Shown: piece after piece, positions 2,537 through 8,244 of the stretch
Layout of the letters: each line of letters begins with the position of its first letter
Numbering within the stretch: the first letter of the stretch is position 1
Source of the DNA: Deltaproteobacteria bacterium
Lineage (GTDB): Bacteria; Desulfobacterota; DSM-4660; Desulfatiglandales; Desulfatiglandaceae
DNA length: 64,000 nucleotides
NCBI GenBank assembly: GCA_021737785.1
Contig: JAIPDI010000001.1
Location: 124,001 to 188,000, forward strand
Direction of reading: 5' to 3'
The notes under the pieces: model-generated
Told to the model about the DNA's origin: nothing
Seen by the model: the letters and a program-made list of their open reading frames with translations, nothing else
Database searches by the model: none
Position numbers and translations under genes: made by a program

Positions 2537-3247
2537 CTATAAGGAGGAGAAGAACGGATTGATGACAAAATAGGCGCCCAGCAATGCAATCACCGCGCCC
2601 GCCCCCTTTCGGAACCAGTTTCCGGCCCCCTGCCAGGCGCTGTTCTCCATGACCCTTTTCACCGCGGCCGTTGAACTACCCGCCACGACAATGGGCAGAC
2701 AGTGGCCGATGGCGAACAGGAGGATGAACAGGATGCCCGTGGCAATCTGCTTTTGAACCGTGATGATGGCCAGGATGGGGGCGATGAATCCGAAGGTGCA
2801 GGATCCCGAAAGGACCCCATAGGCCAGTCCGAGGACGAATGCGCCCAAGAGACCTTTCAAGTTCAGGCGATAAAGAAGACTTCCGGACATGGAGCACTTT
2901 TCAACGCCCAGCATGCCGAGGGCCACCCAGATCAGGATCAGCCCGATCAGGATCTGCCAGTAGTCCCCCACGTCGCCCAGCATGCGGCCCAGGAGGGCGC
3001 AGATAATACCGATGAGGGCGATGGTAATAAAAAGGCCCGATGTAAAGGCCACAGAATAGAACCCGGCCTCCCTCGGCTTCAGAAGCGTCTGCTGCCCGCC
3101 CACGTACGCCACCATAAGCGGGATGGAGGCCAGGTGGCAGGGGCTGAAGACCACGCTGATCATGCCCCACAAAAAACAGCCCAGGGCGGCGATCATGACA
3201 CCGCCTGCAATCCATTCATTCACGGTCAGGAAGATGCTTTCGAGCAT
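2537..3247 (-). CDS. ccdA: CcdA-type thiol-disulfide membrane transporter
   Basis: 236 residues with six membrane helices. The two redox Cys residues of the family are present: SPCHLASIPL in the first helix and GSCTFGFIAP in the fourth. CcdA/DsbD-beta proteins pass electrons from cytoplasmic thioredoxin to periplasmic thioredoxin-like partners. Two such partners are encoded immediately upstream in the same operon (3269-3688 and 3689-4624), which makes this the likely membrane step of the relay. A cytochrome c maturation role is the usual annotation, but no cytochrome genes are nearby. Confidence 0.9.
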   Translation of the reverse strand: MLESIFLTVNEWIAGGVMIAALGCFLWGMISVVFSPCHLASIPLMVAYVGGQQTLLKPREAGFYSVAFTSGLFITIALIGIICALLGRMLGDVGDYWQILIGLILIWVALGMLGVEKCSMSGSLLYRLNLKGLLGAFVLGLAYGVLSGSCTFGFIAPILAIITVQKQIATGILFILLFAIGHCLPIVVAGSSTAAVKRVMENSAWQGAGNWFRKGAGAVIALLGAYFVINPFFSSL

Positions 3248-3268: not shown

Positions 3269-3688
3269 CTAGCTCACGCCCATTTTCTTGAAGATTCGGT
3301 CGATGTCCGCCTCGCCCATGAATCCTTCATGGCGGTGGACCTCTTTCCCCTCTTTATCAAAAAAAATCTGAGTGGGGATGGCCCGGATGCCGAACCGTTT
3401 GGCCGGTGCTTTGTCTTTCCAGACATCGATAAAGACGATGGCGGCCTTTCCCCGGTATTTCTTCTCCACCTTTGCCAGGACCGGCACCATCATCTTGCAG
3501 GGGACGCATTCGTCGGCGCCCAGATCCACCATGGTGGGCATCCCCTTGATCGGAACATCGCCGGCCGTCGGCGAATGGGATGCCGGGGATTCGTCGGATG
3601 AACACCCGGAGAGTTGAAGACTCAGCACGCCGATGAAGGCTGCAAGGGCCGCAATACCCAGCACAACGGTCTTGATTCGCTTCTCCAT
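3269..3688 (-). CDS. Thioredoxin-fold lipoprotein
   Basis: 139 residues. The N-terminus is a lipoprotein signal (hydrophobic segment then LQLSGCSS, lipidation Cys near residue 29). The mature part is a thioredoxin fold with active site ECVPCKMM and the cis-Pro loop IRAIPTQIFF. The sequence closely parallels the C-terminal half of the next gene (VDLGADECVPCKMM versus VEFGAAGCVPCDMM), suggesting a local duplication. It probably works in the periplasm as a reductant or oxidant supplied by the adjacent CcdA. Its ATG follows directly on the stop codon of the preceding gene. Confidence 0.9.
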   Translation of the reverse strand: MEKRIKTVVLGIAALAAFIGVLSLQLSGCSSDESPASHSPTAGDVPIKGMPTMVDLGADECVPCKMMVPVLAKVEKKYRGKAAIVFIDVWKDKAPAKRFGIRAIPTQIFFDKEGKEVHRHEGFMGEADIDRIFKKMGVS

Positions 3689-4624
3689 CTACTTGACCCC
3701 CAGTCGCGCCAGTTGCTTCAAGACCTCTTCTTCTGCATAGAATCCCACATGTCGAAAGACCTCTTTCCCGTTCCTGTCAAAAAATGCCTGAACCGGAATC
3801 GAACGGATTCCGAACCGGGCACCCAGGAGCTGGTTCTCCCGCACGTGCACAAAAACCACGTTGAGCGTGTCGTGAAATTTCTTTCTAAGTTTGTCGAGTA
3901 TGGGCTGCATCATATCACATGGGACGCACCCCGCAGCCCCGAATTCGACCAGGGTAGGTTTTCCGGACATGCGTGCCTTGTCCACCGGGTTGTCCCTGGC
4001 CGATTCCGCCTGTTTCTTCACCCAATCCCGGTTGACGCGGATATCCGTCCTCTTGCCCAGGCCCTCAATGCGGGCATCGAGGGCCGCCACCTTTTTCTGC
4101 TCGAGCAGAAAGGGTTCGATGCTCTCCTTGACCTGATCAAAGGGCATGCCGCCGACCATCGCTTTGTTGGTCTCATAAAATGCCTTCATTTCCGCCTCGT
4201 TTACCGTAATGCCGTCCGTGAGACGCTCCACGTACGCCTTCAACATCTCCTCTTTGGGCTGATCAGCAGAAATGCCCATGGACACTGCATCCTGTTTGAT
4301 GAGCATTTCCATGGCCTTCTGTTCCAGCAAAAAGAAGAGATTCTTCTCCAATTCCTTTCGCATCTCAGGAGGCGCTTCTCCAAGTATTTTCCCGGCAAAA
4401 TCCTCCCGGATTTCAACCTGGTAGGCTTGAAGAAGTACATCCTTTTCCATGTCCGTCAGCCTGGCCGATTTTAAGATCCCTGTTGCCAGGCCCGGATAGG
4501 CCTCTTCCACGGTTACGGGAACCGGTTCATCGGCCCCCGCCAATCCTCCCAGGCCTACCATGAGGGGGAAAACCGCCGTCAACACCATAGCCGGCATCCA
4601 CACGCTTTTTTTCCGTATTTTCAT
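3689..4624 (-). CDS. SurA/PpiC-like chaperone region fused to thioredoxin domain
   Basis: 311 residues from ATG 4624 (AAAGGAAA ribosome-binding site; the open frame runs 24 codons further upstream). A signal peptide (residues 1-30, ending near GLAGADE) is followed by a helical SurA-N-like region (about 40-190, with the EAEMKAFYETN.. pattern typical of SurA/PrsA chaperones but without a parvulin domain) and a C-terminal thioredoxin domain (about 215-311) with active site GCVPCDMM and cis-Pro loop IRSIPVQAFF. The combination suggests a periplasmic folding or thiol-transfer factor. It lies between arsM and the thioredoxin lipoprotein, so a role in keeping arsenic-related thiols reduced is possible but inferred. 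Confidence 0.8.
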   Translation of the reverse strand: MKIRKKSVWMPAMVLTAVFPLMVGLGGLAGADEPVPVTVEEAYPGLATGILKSARLTDMEKDVLLQAYQVEIREDFAGKILGEAPPEMRKELEKNLFFLLEQKAMEMLIKQDAVSMGISADQPKEEMLKAYVERLTDGITVNEAEMKAFYETNKAMVGGMPFDQVKESIEPFLLEQKKVAALDARIEGLGKRTDIRVNRDWVKKQAESARDNPVDKARMSGKPTLVEFGAAGCVPCDMMQPILDKLRKKFHDTLNVVFVHVRENQLLGARFGIRSIPVQAFFDRNGKEVFRHVGFYAEEEVLKQLARLGVK

Positions 4625-4643
4625 CCAGTTTCCTTTCTTACCG

Positions 4644-5438
4644 TTAAGATGGCTTGACCGCCAGAATATAGGCGGAAAAAACCACCTTTTCCGCATTGTC
4701 CGCGACGTTCCAGCCTCGAATGATCTCCTCGCTCTGCTCCTTTTGCCGGATGGCGATTGCCTGAAACCCCAGGTCCGACAGAATCCCTTCCACCTCCCCG
4801 GGTGAAATGGCCCCGGCCACTCACCCGGTATAGGCGAGGGGGTTGTCTTGAAGCGCCTTTGGGATTTCTCCGGAGCGGAGGATATCGGAAATAACGATCC
4901 GGCCCCCCGGCTTCAAAACCCGATGAATTTCGCCGAAAACCGCGGTCTTGTCCGGGGAAAGGTTGACGACGCAATTGGAAATGACCACATCCACGGAATT
5001 GTCCTCAACAGGCAGGGCCTCGATCTTTCCCATGCGGAAGTCTACATTGTGGATATTCAGACTTTCGGCGTTGGCCCTGGCTTTCTCAACCATTTCCCCG
5101 GTCATATCCATACCGATCACTTTCCCTGCCGCACCCACCTGCCTGGCCGCCAGAAAGGCATCGAATCCCGCACCGCTGCCGAGGTCCAGCACGATCTCGC
5201 CCGGCTTCAGATCCGCTTTGCCGATGGGATTGCCGCAACCCAGTCCCAGGTTTGCCTCTCCGGGCGCCAGCAGGAGATCCTCATCCTGATAGTCAAGGAT
5301 CCTTCCCATGGCCTGGATGTCTGTGATGAGCGTGGGACCGCCGCAACACGACGAGGCGCCCATGCCGCGCTTCCCTTCTGCGATGGCGGCATATTTTTCT
5401 TTGACCAGCCCATGTATCTCGTTGTCTTCTGGTTTCAT
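4644..5438 (-). CDS. arsM: ArsM-type arsenite methyltransferase, probable selenoprotein (in-frame TGA at 4821-4823)
   Basis: SAM-dependent methyltransferase for As(III). Start ATG 5438 has GGAGG ten bases upstream and gives the family's usual KEKYAAIAEG N-terminus. Visible parts: SSCCGG Cys pair that binds arsenic (about residue 30), SAM motif VLDLGSGAGFDAF (about 82-94), SNCVVNLSP Cys (about 155). A TGA interrupts the frame after LAYTG, exactly where relatives have the conserved arsenic-binding Cys of the YTGC(I/V)AGA motif. After it the frame stays open for 58 codons and keeps family sequence (VAGAISPGEVE, then GFQAIAIRQK) to TAA at 4644. A SECIS-like hairpin follows the TGA. Read with Sec, the protein has 264 residues, the normal length. 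A plain truncation would remove a catalytic residue and conserved tail; nonsense mutation remains the alternative. Confidence 0.8.
4786..4820 (-). promoter_or_regulatory. SECIS-like hairpin downstream of arsM TGA
   Basis: Directly after the TGA (4823-4821, minus strand) there are 13 bases and then a stem TTTCACC (4807-4801), a six-base loop CGGGGA (4800-4795) and the pairing arm GGTGGAA (4794-4788): seven pairs with one G-U. Two further C-G pairs form below an A-G mismatch. The loop begins 21 bases after the TGA and has G at its second and third positions, fitting the bacterial SECIS pattern (short loop with early guanine, within roughly 16-37 bases of UGA). It would recruit SelB inside the coding sequence. 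An overlapping CCGGG/CCCGG stem nearer the TGA is an alternative fold. Confidence 0.6.
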
Positions 5439-5473: not shown

Positions 5474-5707
5474 CTAGCTGGTTATCCATGCCTTGATCTC
5501 TTCTTTGGAAGGGACCTTGCCCACACACTTAACCTCCCCGTCCACCACCACCGCCGGCGTCATGAAGACGCCGTGTTTGGCAATGTCCATGACGTCTTTG
5601 ACCTTGCTCACCGTGACATCGACCCCTGCCTCATGTATTGCCTCTTTAACGCGTTTTTCCGTCTGCTCGCATTTGGGACACCCAGGCCCCAATACCTTGA
5701 TTTCCAT
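5474..5707 (-). CDS. Small thioredoxin/glutaredoxin-fold protein (redox-active disulfide protein family)
   Basis: 77 residues starting MEIKVLGPGCPKCEQ, the signature of the small MTH895/TM0996-like thioredoxin family with a CPKC active site (residues 10-13) and the MTPAVVVDGEV cis-Pro segment. No signal peptide, so cytoplasmic. Such proteins often accompany ArsP-type permeases and arsenic methylation genes. It lies 35 bp upstream of the arsM start and is followed in the upstream gene by a closely similar domain (IKVLGPGCVQCDR), indicating duplication. A GGAGAAGG-type ribosome-binding site precedes the ATG. Confidence 0.9.
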   Translation of the reverse strand: MEIKVLGPGCPKCEQTEKRVKEAIHEAGVDVTVSKVKDVMDIAKHGVFMTPAVVVDGEVKCVGKVPSKEEIKAWITS

Positions 5708-5765
5708 AATCCTTCTCCTTTCCGTTTCCCCGTGGCCTTGCGCCTTGGGCCTTACGCCTTGCGCC
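5708..5765 (-). repeat. GCCTTGCGCC-type low-complexity spacer
   Basis: The gap between the two thioredoxin-fold genes is built of imperfect repeats of seven to eight bases (GCCTTGCGCCTT, GGCCTTACGCCTTG and similar). The same motif, read on either strand, occurs at about 19594-19617 and at the right edge of the window (63978-64000). It encodes nothing recognisable. Confidence 0.6.
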
Positions 5766-6281
5766 TTATTCCTTATGCCTTACGCCCTGCGCCTCCATGA
5801 TCCATTCAACCATTTTTGATTTCAGCGGCACCTTGCCCACTGACTTGACCCGGCCGTTGATGAGCAGGGCCGGCGTTCCCATGACCCCGTAACGACCGAT
5901 CTCCTTGATATCCCGAACGTGCTCGATGTCGGCCATGACCCCGGTTTCAGACATGACCTGCATGAGGTCCTGCTCAAGGCGATCGCACTGCACGCACCCC
6001 GGCCCCAAGACCTTGATCTGAATCCCCTCCGGCGTCTCCTCTTGTTCAAAGGGCTTCCCCACATATTTTTTAAATTCTCTGAGAAAGGCCTTACCGTACT
6101 GCCCCCTGACCTTATCAGGAAAATAATTCCGTTTTGCCAGGCGTTGGAGGAGTTCTGCTTCGGCTTCCGGGTCCGGCCTGTCAGCATGCGTCTCGGCCAT
6201 CTCTTCCATGACCGCTTTGAGCCCTATGATGCCCACGCCCGAGCTCCCTACCCTGATCTGCGTCACATCATCCTGTGACAT
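5766..6281 (-). CDS. Thioredoxin-fold protein with N-terminal extension
   Basis: 171 residues from ATG 6281 (GAGAGG seven bases upstream; the frame also has an ATG six codons earlier). Residues 1-85 form a charged helical extension beginning VTQIRVGSSGVGIIGLK and ending in KNYFPDKVRGQYGKAFLREF, a pattern I associate with NAC-like N-termini in arsenic gene clusters of anaerobes. Residues 95-171 are a small thioredoxin domain, IKVLGPGCVQCDR, with MGTPALLINGRV as the cis-Pro region. Cytoplasmic. It lies between the ArsP-like permease and the 77-residue thioredoxin. Electron donor for permease cargo or for ArsM is a reasonable inference. Confidence 0.8.
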   Translation of the reverse strand: MSQDDVTQIRVGSSGVGIIGLKAVMEEMAETHADRPDPEAEAELLQRLAKRNYFPDKVRGQYGKAFLREFKKYVGKPFEQEETPEGIQIKVLGPGCVQCDRLEQDLMQVMSETGVMADIEHVRDIKEIGRYGVMGTPALLINGRVKSVGKVPLKSKMVEWIMEAQGVRHKE

Positions 6282-6463
6282 ACACGTCCTCTCTTTCATT
6301 CACCGCAAAGTGGCAAAGTACGGTAAGGTTTTATCATGTTCAATCCTCTGAAATCTAATCGCGCGCCAGCGCTTGAGTATTTTGATCCTTGCTCTCTCTT
6401 CAAGGATCAAAATCAACCAACAAAAAACTCCCCTTCGCGTTCTTCGCGCCTTCGCGGTGAATC

Positions 6464-7636
6464 TTACCCAGAGATCCAGCCGTAAGTCATGCCCGCGATG
6501 GTACTTAAAATAACAATAATCACGCAAAAGACAGCTGTCTTCTTGACCCCCATGACCCCGCCGATTACCAGCATGTTGGGAAGGGAGAGGGCCGGTCCCG
6601 CAAGAAGGAGACTGAGGGCCGGCCCCTTGCCCATGCCGGATCCGATGAGACCCTGGAGAATGGGCACCTCCGTCAGTGTGGCGAAATACATCAAGGCCCC
6701 GGATACCGACGCAAACAGATTGGCCCACAGGGAATTGCCCCCCACCAGGGATGCCACATAGTGCTCCGGGATCAGAGCCGGATGCCCGGGTCTGCCCAGC
6801 ATAAAGCCCGCCACCAGGACCCCGGCGCCCAGAAGGGGAAAGATCTGTTTCATGAATCCCCAGGTGGACTGGACCCAGGTGGTTCTCTCTTCTTTTACAA
6901 ACCAGCGCTTCAGCATAAAGCCGAGAATAATGAGAAGCCCGGCCGTGATAATCCATTTGGCGGCAAAAACAGCCGGCCAGAACCCGGTGGACCCCGGGGC
7001 AGGTCTTGCAAAGGCGGCAAAAATAAGGATCAGCACCAAGGTCAGCATGAACAGCGCATCCTGGGCCAGGGTGCGGCCTTTCCCCTCTTCCTCCGGGAGG
7101 TAGATCTGCCCGGCTGCCCGCGCCGCATCGTCCTTTCTGAAGATGAAGGCCATGAGAAGGCCGGTGATGACGGCAAACAGGACTGCTCCGATGGCCCTGG
7201 CCAGACCCAGTTCCCACCCTAAAATCCTGGCCGTGAGCACGATGGCCAGCACGTTGATGGCAGGGCCGGAATAGAGGAAGGCCGTTGCCGGGCCGATGCC
7301 CGCTCCCCGCGTATAGATTCCCGCAAACAGGGGCAGCACCGTGCACGAACAGACCGCGAGGACCGTCCCGGATACGGAAGCAACCGAATAAGAAAGGATT
7401 TTCCCGGCCGTGGCCCCGAAATACTTCAGGACCGATGCCTGGGACACAAACACGGCAATGGCGCCGGCAATAAAAAAGGCGGGAATGAGGCAGGTCAGGA
7501 CATGCTCGCGGGCATACTCCTGGAGCATCATGAAGGCCTCGAGGCCCGATCGCCGCACCGTCTCATTCGCCCAGGGGATATAATAGGCGGCCGCAAAAAT
7601 CAGGATGATGTAAATGAGTTTTGTTCTCTCTTTCAA
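6464..7636 (-). CDS. arsP: ArsP/DUF318-type permease
   Basis: 390 residues with about ten membrane helices. The family hallmark AVCSCTVLPLFAGIYTRGAG followed by PATAFLYSGPAINVLA is intact (about residues 95-130), and the second half repeats the fold (GPALSLPNMLVIGG). This permease family includes ArsP, which exports trivalent organoarsenicals. Being in an operon with arsR and an arsM-type methyltransferase makes export of methylated arsenic the best guess; other family members are annotated only as predicted permeases. The start is TTG at 7636 with GGAG ten bases upstream. A 164-bp non-coding gap (6300-6463) with common intergenic CACCGCAAAG/CGCCTTCGCGG sequence follows the gene. Confidence 0.85.
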   Translation of the reverse strand: MKERTKLIYIILIFAAAYYIPWANETVRRSGLEAFMMLQEYAREHVLTCLIPAFFIAGAIAVFVSQASVLKYFGATAGKILSYSVASVSGTVLAVCSCTVLPLFAGIYTRGAGIGPATAFLYSGPAINVLAIVLTARILGWELGLARAIGAVLFAVITGLLMAFIFRKDDAARAAGQIYLPEEEGKGRTLAQDALFMLTLVLILIFAAFARPAPGSTGFWPAVFAAKWIITAGLLIILGFMLKRWFVKEERTTWVQSTWGFMKQIFPLLGAGVLVAGFMLGRPGHPALIPEHYVASLVGGNSLWANLFASVSGALMYFATLTEVPILQGLIGSGMGKGPALSLLLAGPALSLPNMLVIGGVMGVKKTAVFCVIIVILSTIAGMTYGWISG

Positions 7637-7732: not shown

Positions 7733-8077
7733 CTATCTTCTGCAGATCTCCTCGCGACAAATGGACGGCAGTTTTTCCAAAAGGGGCGCCACCTGCTCAT
7801 CCTTCTCCAGCCAGTGACGGAGGTTTCCCAAAAGCGCCGCTGCATAAGGGCTGCGGCCCCCGTCTGTCAGGTGATAATTCACCCAAAGACCGTCCTTCCT
7901 GTAATCAACCAGCCCGGCGTCCTCCAGCAATTTCAGGTGTTTTGACACGGTAGGCTGGGCAACCCCCAGGGCGGCCTGCACCTCGCAGACACACATGGAT
8001 TTGTGCTGCAGCATCTTGATGATCTTGACCCGGTTGGGATCGGAAAGCGCCTTCATCACCTTGACAAATGATTTCAT
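7733..8077 (-). CDS. arsR: ArsR-family metalloregulator
   Basis: 114 residues from ATG 8077 (GAGGAT upstream; the open frame extends 27 codons further without a better start). A winged helix-turn-helix (about residues 15-80) contains ALSDPNRVKIIKML, the ArsR metal site MCVCEVQ in the recognition-adjacent helix and QPTVSKHLKLLEDAGLV. The C-terminus ends SICREEICRR, offering more Cys ligands. Proteins with this CVC(E/D) motif leave DNA on binding As(III) or Sb(III). It is the first gene of the leftward cluster and should repress the promoter at 8264-8292. Confidence 0.9.
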   Translation of the reverse strand: MKSFVKVMKALSDPNRVKIIKMLQHKSMCVCEVQAALGVAQPTVSKHLKLLEDAGLVDYRKDGLWVNYHLTDGGRSPYAAALLGNLRHWLEKDEQVAPLLEKLPSICREEICRR

Positions 8078-8244
8078 ACCATATCCTCGGTAAATGTAAT
8101 AGCTGATGGCCACATGTCTGGTAATAAAACCAACTTGTAAAAGCGTCCGCTGCCACAAAGGTCGAGGCTGAGAGCCTCTCTCACAGAGACCTCATGAACT
8201 CTCACTTTCGCCCTTTGGCATTCACTTGCAGTTCGGGTGCCAGA

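Follow-up and report, generated by a model that had tools for sequence, protein, structure and literature searches.

Introduction

Arsenite methyltransferase (ArsM) is counted among the experimentally verified prokaryotic selenoproteins (PMC9312934; PMC13188914), and PMC9312934 credits the verification to Fomenko et al. 2007. Eight arsenite S-adenosylmethyltransferases with selenocysteine (Sec), all of the PRK11873 family, were reported in the Global Ocean Sampling set in 2008 (PMC2398784), and a later review gives the Sec motif of ArsM as UxxG (PMC13188914). Selenoproteins of the ArsM type form an established family, and the principle was known before this work. Since reviews and ocean data already include Sec ArsM, the gene described here, located in a 64,000-nucleotide stretch of DNA (hereafter, the window), is a well-supported further member of this family.

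The Sec arsenite methyltransferases represented by WP_011987699.1 (NF008823/PRK11873) belong to the same family as the window protein; by motif, the UxxG of the later review compares with UVAG in the window. The window gene comes from a different organism, and its relatives are found in Thermodesulfobacteriota/Desulfobacterales MAGs. The Global Ocean Sampling sequences are marine reads of the same PRK11873 (PMC2398784), likened here by family name. The multi-Sec fusions ArsM_DUF2284_UU and ArsM_AhpD_UU (NF041536 and NF041537) share an ArsM domain with UxxG (PMC13188914). Neither a DUF2284 nor an AhpD domain is fused to ArsM in the window gene, which scores far below the cut-offs of both fusion families (153.7 bits compared to 575 for ArsM_DUF2284_UU and 163 bits compared to 510 for ArsM_AhpD_UU). 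CmArsM of Cyanidioschyzon merolae (4fr0, 4fsd, and 4kw7) shares with the window protein its fold (Z 22.3) and the arsenic-ligand positions, and human AS3MT (8xt7) shares the fold of the window model with Z 18.0. Both enzymes have Cys where the window protein has its predicted Sec, and their C-terminal regions are longer.

Results

The window gene is a full-length arsM frame with one internal TGA

When TGA is translated as U, the minus-strand frame 5438-4644 (Table 1) encodes a single 264-residue ArsM whose only interruption is codon 206. The TGA lies in the context YTG-U-VAGAISPGEV and is followed by 58 codons. The read-through product matched the NF008823 arsenite methyltransferase profile with 325.6 bits (curated cut-off, 263 bits). 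Because the match spans profile positions 3 to 268 of 272, the segment after the TGA is family sequence, as the initial annotation had asserted for these 58 codons.

Table 1. Features of the arsM locus in window coordinates.
Feature	Coordinates	Strand	Description	Evidence
arsM CDS	4644..5438	minus	264 codons, one in-frame TGA, TAA stop 4646-4644	translation, NF008823, model vs 4fr0
TGA codon 206	4823-4821	minus	read as selenocysteine (predicted); CmArsM Cys224 equivalent	ungapped block vs 4kw7/4fr0, homologue columns
SECIS-like hairpin	4788..4807	minus	7 pairs, loop CGGGGA 4800-4795	covariation, Sec vs Cys comparison
ArsE/MTH895-family thioredoxin-like	5474..5707	minus	77 aa	TIGR00412 108.1 bits, cut-off 62
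Second ArsE/MTH895-family thioredoxin-like	5766..6299	minus	177 aa	TIGR00412 84.1 bits
ArsP_1-family permease	6464..7636	minus	candidate trivalent methylated arsenic exporter	PF03773 E 1.9e-72
ArsR/SmtB metalloregulator	7733..8158	minus		NF033788 94.9 bits, cut-off 55
Thioredoxin-domain protein	3689..4696	minus	directly downstream of arsM	PF00085
Thioredoxin	3269..3688	minus		PF00085, TIGR01068
DsbD/CcdA-type protein	2537..3247	minus	transmembrane electron-transfer protein	PF02683

Among solved structures, ArsM enzymes were the best sequence matches for the window protein. In an ungapped alignment block, residues 156 and 206 correspond to CmArsM Cys174 and Cys224; residue 68 aligns with Cys72, and Cys31/32 is invariant in the N-terminal segment. 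All four conserved ArsM Cys/Sec positions (CmArsM Cys44, 72, 174, and 224) are present, the threshold having been set at ≥3. According to PMC3877260, which cites earlier work, Cys72, Cys174, and Cys224 of CmArsM bind arsenic, and the C174A and C224A variants have no activity on As(III) or MAs(III). Since residue 206 aligns with the arsenic ligand Cys224, the TGA takes the place of a catalytic ligand, which bears out the earlier placement of a single TGA at the conserved arsenic-binding Cys. In a structure model made with 14 homologues as input, block pLDDT was ~79 to 97 from residue 201 to the end, and the model superimposed on CmArsM 4fr0 with an rmsd of 2.5 over 212 residues, up to the model's own C-terminus. 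Judged by these sequence criteria, the window gene is an ArsM-family arsenite methyltransferase, for which S-adenosylmethionine (SAM)–dependent methylation of As(III) is predicted.

A search of the source genome revealed no second ArsM, the remaining matches being weak generic methyltransferases. The closest plasmid homologues of the window ArsM were <60% identical. Six candidates for further Sec genes in the window were tested, and none had family sequence on both sides of its TGA.

The neighborhood of arsM suggests a link to arsenic

On the strand of arsM, the genes for ArsR, the ArsP_1 permease, and the two ArsE/MTH895 proteins are upstream, and those for the thioredoxin-domain protein, the thioredoxin, and the DsbD/CcdA-like protein are downstream. 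The gene order from ArsR to the DsbD-like protein is kept in the relative L051, and parts of it are kept in most close Sec relatives. In most Sec relatives whose flanking sequence is long enough, arsM has an ArsE-like gene next to it, and copies of the ArsP_1 permease, 80 to 93% identical, lie upstream of arsM in relatives. Also found downstream of arsM are a rhodanese, a zinc-type cation diffusion facilitator (CDF), and a MauE/DoxX-type protein. The two ArsE/MTH895 genes are consecutive (5474-6299, minus strand) and 43% identical over the domain, one of them having an N-terminal extension of ~90 residues. The listed start of the thioredoxin-domain gene 3689-4696 (minus strand) overlaps the end of arsM by ~50 bases. 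Since the L051 copy of this gene starts after its arsM ends, the true start probably lies further inside the listed frame, after the arsM stop.

We infer the substrate of the enzyme from its family and its neighbors. An ArsM-family Sec methyltransferase acting mainly on something other than arsenite, e.g., on antimonite or on selenium or mercury species, would also account for the gene. The ArsP_1-type permease, which scores below the cut-offs of both the SO_0444 Cu/Zn and the SaoE subfamilies, may have another cargo, and the CDF and rhodanese genes in the same stretch would suit such a substrate too. However, the protein scores above the arsenite methyltransferase cut-off and retains all four conserved ArsM Cys/Sec positions, and we therefore regard a different main substrate as unlikely.

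The TGA is conserved at one codon and is followed by sequence under selection

A contig scan with the window protein as single query returned only two close relatives; a search of 60 related genomes yielded 11 more ArsM copies with one TGA, and a phylum-wide search added others. Homologues were aligned at the TGA column, as the initial annotation had proposed. Among the resulting 67 loci, the column is occupied by TGA in 23 (22 when a duplicate copy is left out; the window gene is included in the count) and by a Cys codon, TGC or TGT, in the remaining 44; TAA, TAG, or a codon for another residue was found in none of the 67. In total, 21 homologues from other genomes have TGA at the codon 206 column. 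Several TGAs inside matches from the phylum fell off the Sec column once aligned. The closest relatives have TGA, and not the TAA or TAG that would have spoken against the selenoprotein reading. Two of them, L051 (85 to 86% identical to the window gene) and L052 (75%), belong to MAGs that were named separately and are labeled Thermodesulfobacteriota and Desulfobacterales.

In comparisons of the window gene with six relatives, dN/dS was 0.09 to 0.16 after the TGA and 0.05 to 0.16 before it. Purifying selection is as strong after the TGA as before, and so a dead tail is removed as an explanation. These results bear on the possibility that the TGA is a real stop, leaving either a decaying pseudogene or a truncated methyltransferase of 205 residues. 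Such a reading agrees with the mechanically listed open reading frame, which, when translated with the standard code, stops at the TGA. It would leave unexplained why TGA recurs at one codon across many families, with TAA and TAG never found there, and why selection is equal after it. The truncated form would also lack the equivalent of Cys224, which is needed for both methylation steps of CmArsM (PMC3877260, citing earlier work), in a genome without an intact second ArsM copy. A genuine stop at codon 206 is thus very improbable.

A conserved SECIS-like hairpin follows the TGA in Sec homologues

In bacterial SECIS elements, the apical loop lies ~16 to 37 nt after the UGA, and G is found in the first two bases of the loop. 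The seven-pair hairpin described in the initial annotation is present, with strand 4807-4801 paired with 4794-4788, and it agrees with this rule: the first base of the CGGGGA loop is base 21 after the TGA. Within the main clade of Sec homologues, 99.2% of cells in the stem columns can pair, compared to 53 to 60% when partners are slid by one to three columns. Two of the seven pairs change on both sides, from U-A to C-G in four sequences and from A-U to G-C in two. Six such cells were observed compared to 1.3 in shuffles, and the covariation score was not reached by any shuffle. In both A-U to G-C cases, Val GTG is replaced by Ala GCG and the Ser codon TCA by TCG; pairing is therefore kept across an amino acid change. 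Of the 22 Sec homologues, 21 have stems of ≥6 pairs, compared to 2 of the 44 Cys homologues (P = 8e-11, with the relatedness of the sequences ignored).

The folding energy of the hairpin was not unusual compared to dinucleotide shuffles (z +0.68), which may be expected for so small an element. Folding energy did not stand out under synonymous recoding either, so that both energy tests were weak or uninformative, and recoding of the window sequence gave an equal stem in ~10% of trials. The informative tests are a rule that combines the length of the stem with the position of the loop and a G in it, and the pair counts over homologues. Together, covariation and the contrast between Sec and Cys homologues support the proposed reading of the hairpin as a putative bacterial SECIS element.

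The source genome encodes a complete Sec system

Absence of the Sec machinery from the genome would have counted against the proposal. SelA (616.9 bits), SelB (397.4 bits), SelD (372.9 bits), and a tRNA-Sec gene with anticodon TCA were all found. The selD gene (G000:C15:44295-45221) has an in-frame TGA within GSG-U-ASKL, at the known Sec position of this enzyme, which makes SelD a predicted selenoprotein as well. A second Rfam tRNA-Sec match over the cut-off (G000:C81:316-392) was identified as tRNA-Trp by ARAGORN, which supports a single tRNA-Sec gene in the genome. SelB was found in 21 of the 22 genomes counted as Sec-ArsM genomes, one of which, G397, was so counted by TGA count alone. No SelB match was obtained in G004, an 84% complete genome that has an ArsM TGA. 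Nearly all tested genomes of the phylum have SelB. Since these include most genomes with Cys ArsM, the machinery alone does not decide between Sec and Cys.

Reading of the TGA as Trp, Cys, or a near-cognate amino acid, and not as Sec, would likewise result in a full-length protein. Yet Cys and TGA alternate at one catalytic column, the SECIS-like hairpin is nearly confined to homologues with TGA, the Sec system is complete, and SelD itself uses TGA. Moreover, several homologous arsM genes end in TGA as an ordinary stop. There is accordingly very little probability of such a read-through. An artifact converting TGC or TGT to TGA, which could be suspected since only one draft assembly, in 96 contigs, underlies the window, has a negligible chance and is for practical purposes excluded, because the same TGA occurs in independent assemblies, including those of L051 and L052.

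Discussion

Our analysis makes it highly probable that the gene encodes a Sec-containing arsenite SAM methyltransferase, and it supports the earlier interpretation of this ArsM as a selenoprotein, the TGA being conserved and the machinery complete. We propose that the 264-residue enzyme would arise when UGA 206 is read as Sec with the help of SelB, tRNA-Sec, and the nearby downstream hairpin. As(III) would be bound by Cys68, Cys156, and Sec206, the equivalents of CmArsM Cys72, Cys174, and Cys224, and methylated from SAM. Reduction of the enzyme or of its substrate is probably the task of the neighboring ArsE-like and thioredoxin proteins, and methylated As(III) probably leaves the cell through the ArsP-type permease, under the control of ArsR. 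The idea of export of the methylated form is put forward because Campylobacter jejuni ArsP exports MAs(III), not arsenite (PMC6205960); by this analogy, the gene cluster suggests that the methylated As(III) produced by the predicted Sec enzyme is destined for export and that the thioredoxin-like proteins serve as reductants.

Under the standard code, arsM is cut just before its catalytic residue. Surveys of arsenic cycling may therefore wrongly score ArsM as inactive or absent in many Thermodesulfobacteriota genomes. Sec at this position could change the affinity and redox chemistry of arsenic methylation, as the initial annotation had suggested. The 22 Sec and 44 Cys homologues differing at one arsenic ligand form a ready comparison for studying the role of selenium at an arsenic site.

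The window gene is one of 18 Sec sequences, drawn from several families, that form a starred clade in a tree built without the Sec site. L090 is an uncertain 19th member of this main clade, and L094, L095, and L096 are placed elsewhere. On this tree, two switches between Cys and Sec are required; only one of them is forced by starred branches, and long branches lead to the odd members. More than one gain of Sec is suggested. A broader scenario, which we put forward tentatively and consider somewhat doubtful, is that, within the phylum, Sec at the Cys224 position had more than one origin or was repeatedly refitted with a new SECIS (in the main clade, L090, L094, and L095/L096) and that the main clade represents a fixed ArsR-ArsP-ArsE-ArsM(Sec)-thioredoxin cluster, a specialized selenol-based route of arsenic methylation and export in anaerobes.

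L090, L094, L095, and L096 (from genomes G174, G401, G279, and G409) are divergent ArsM genes with TGA at the same column and hairpins unlike those of the main clade. The hairpins of L090, of L094, and of L095 with L096 are of unrelated sequence; they lie at roughly the same position, and each has a G among the first two loop bases.
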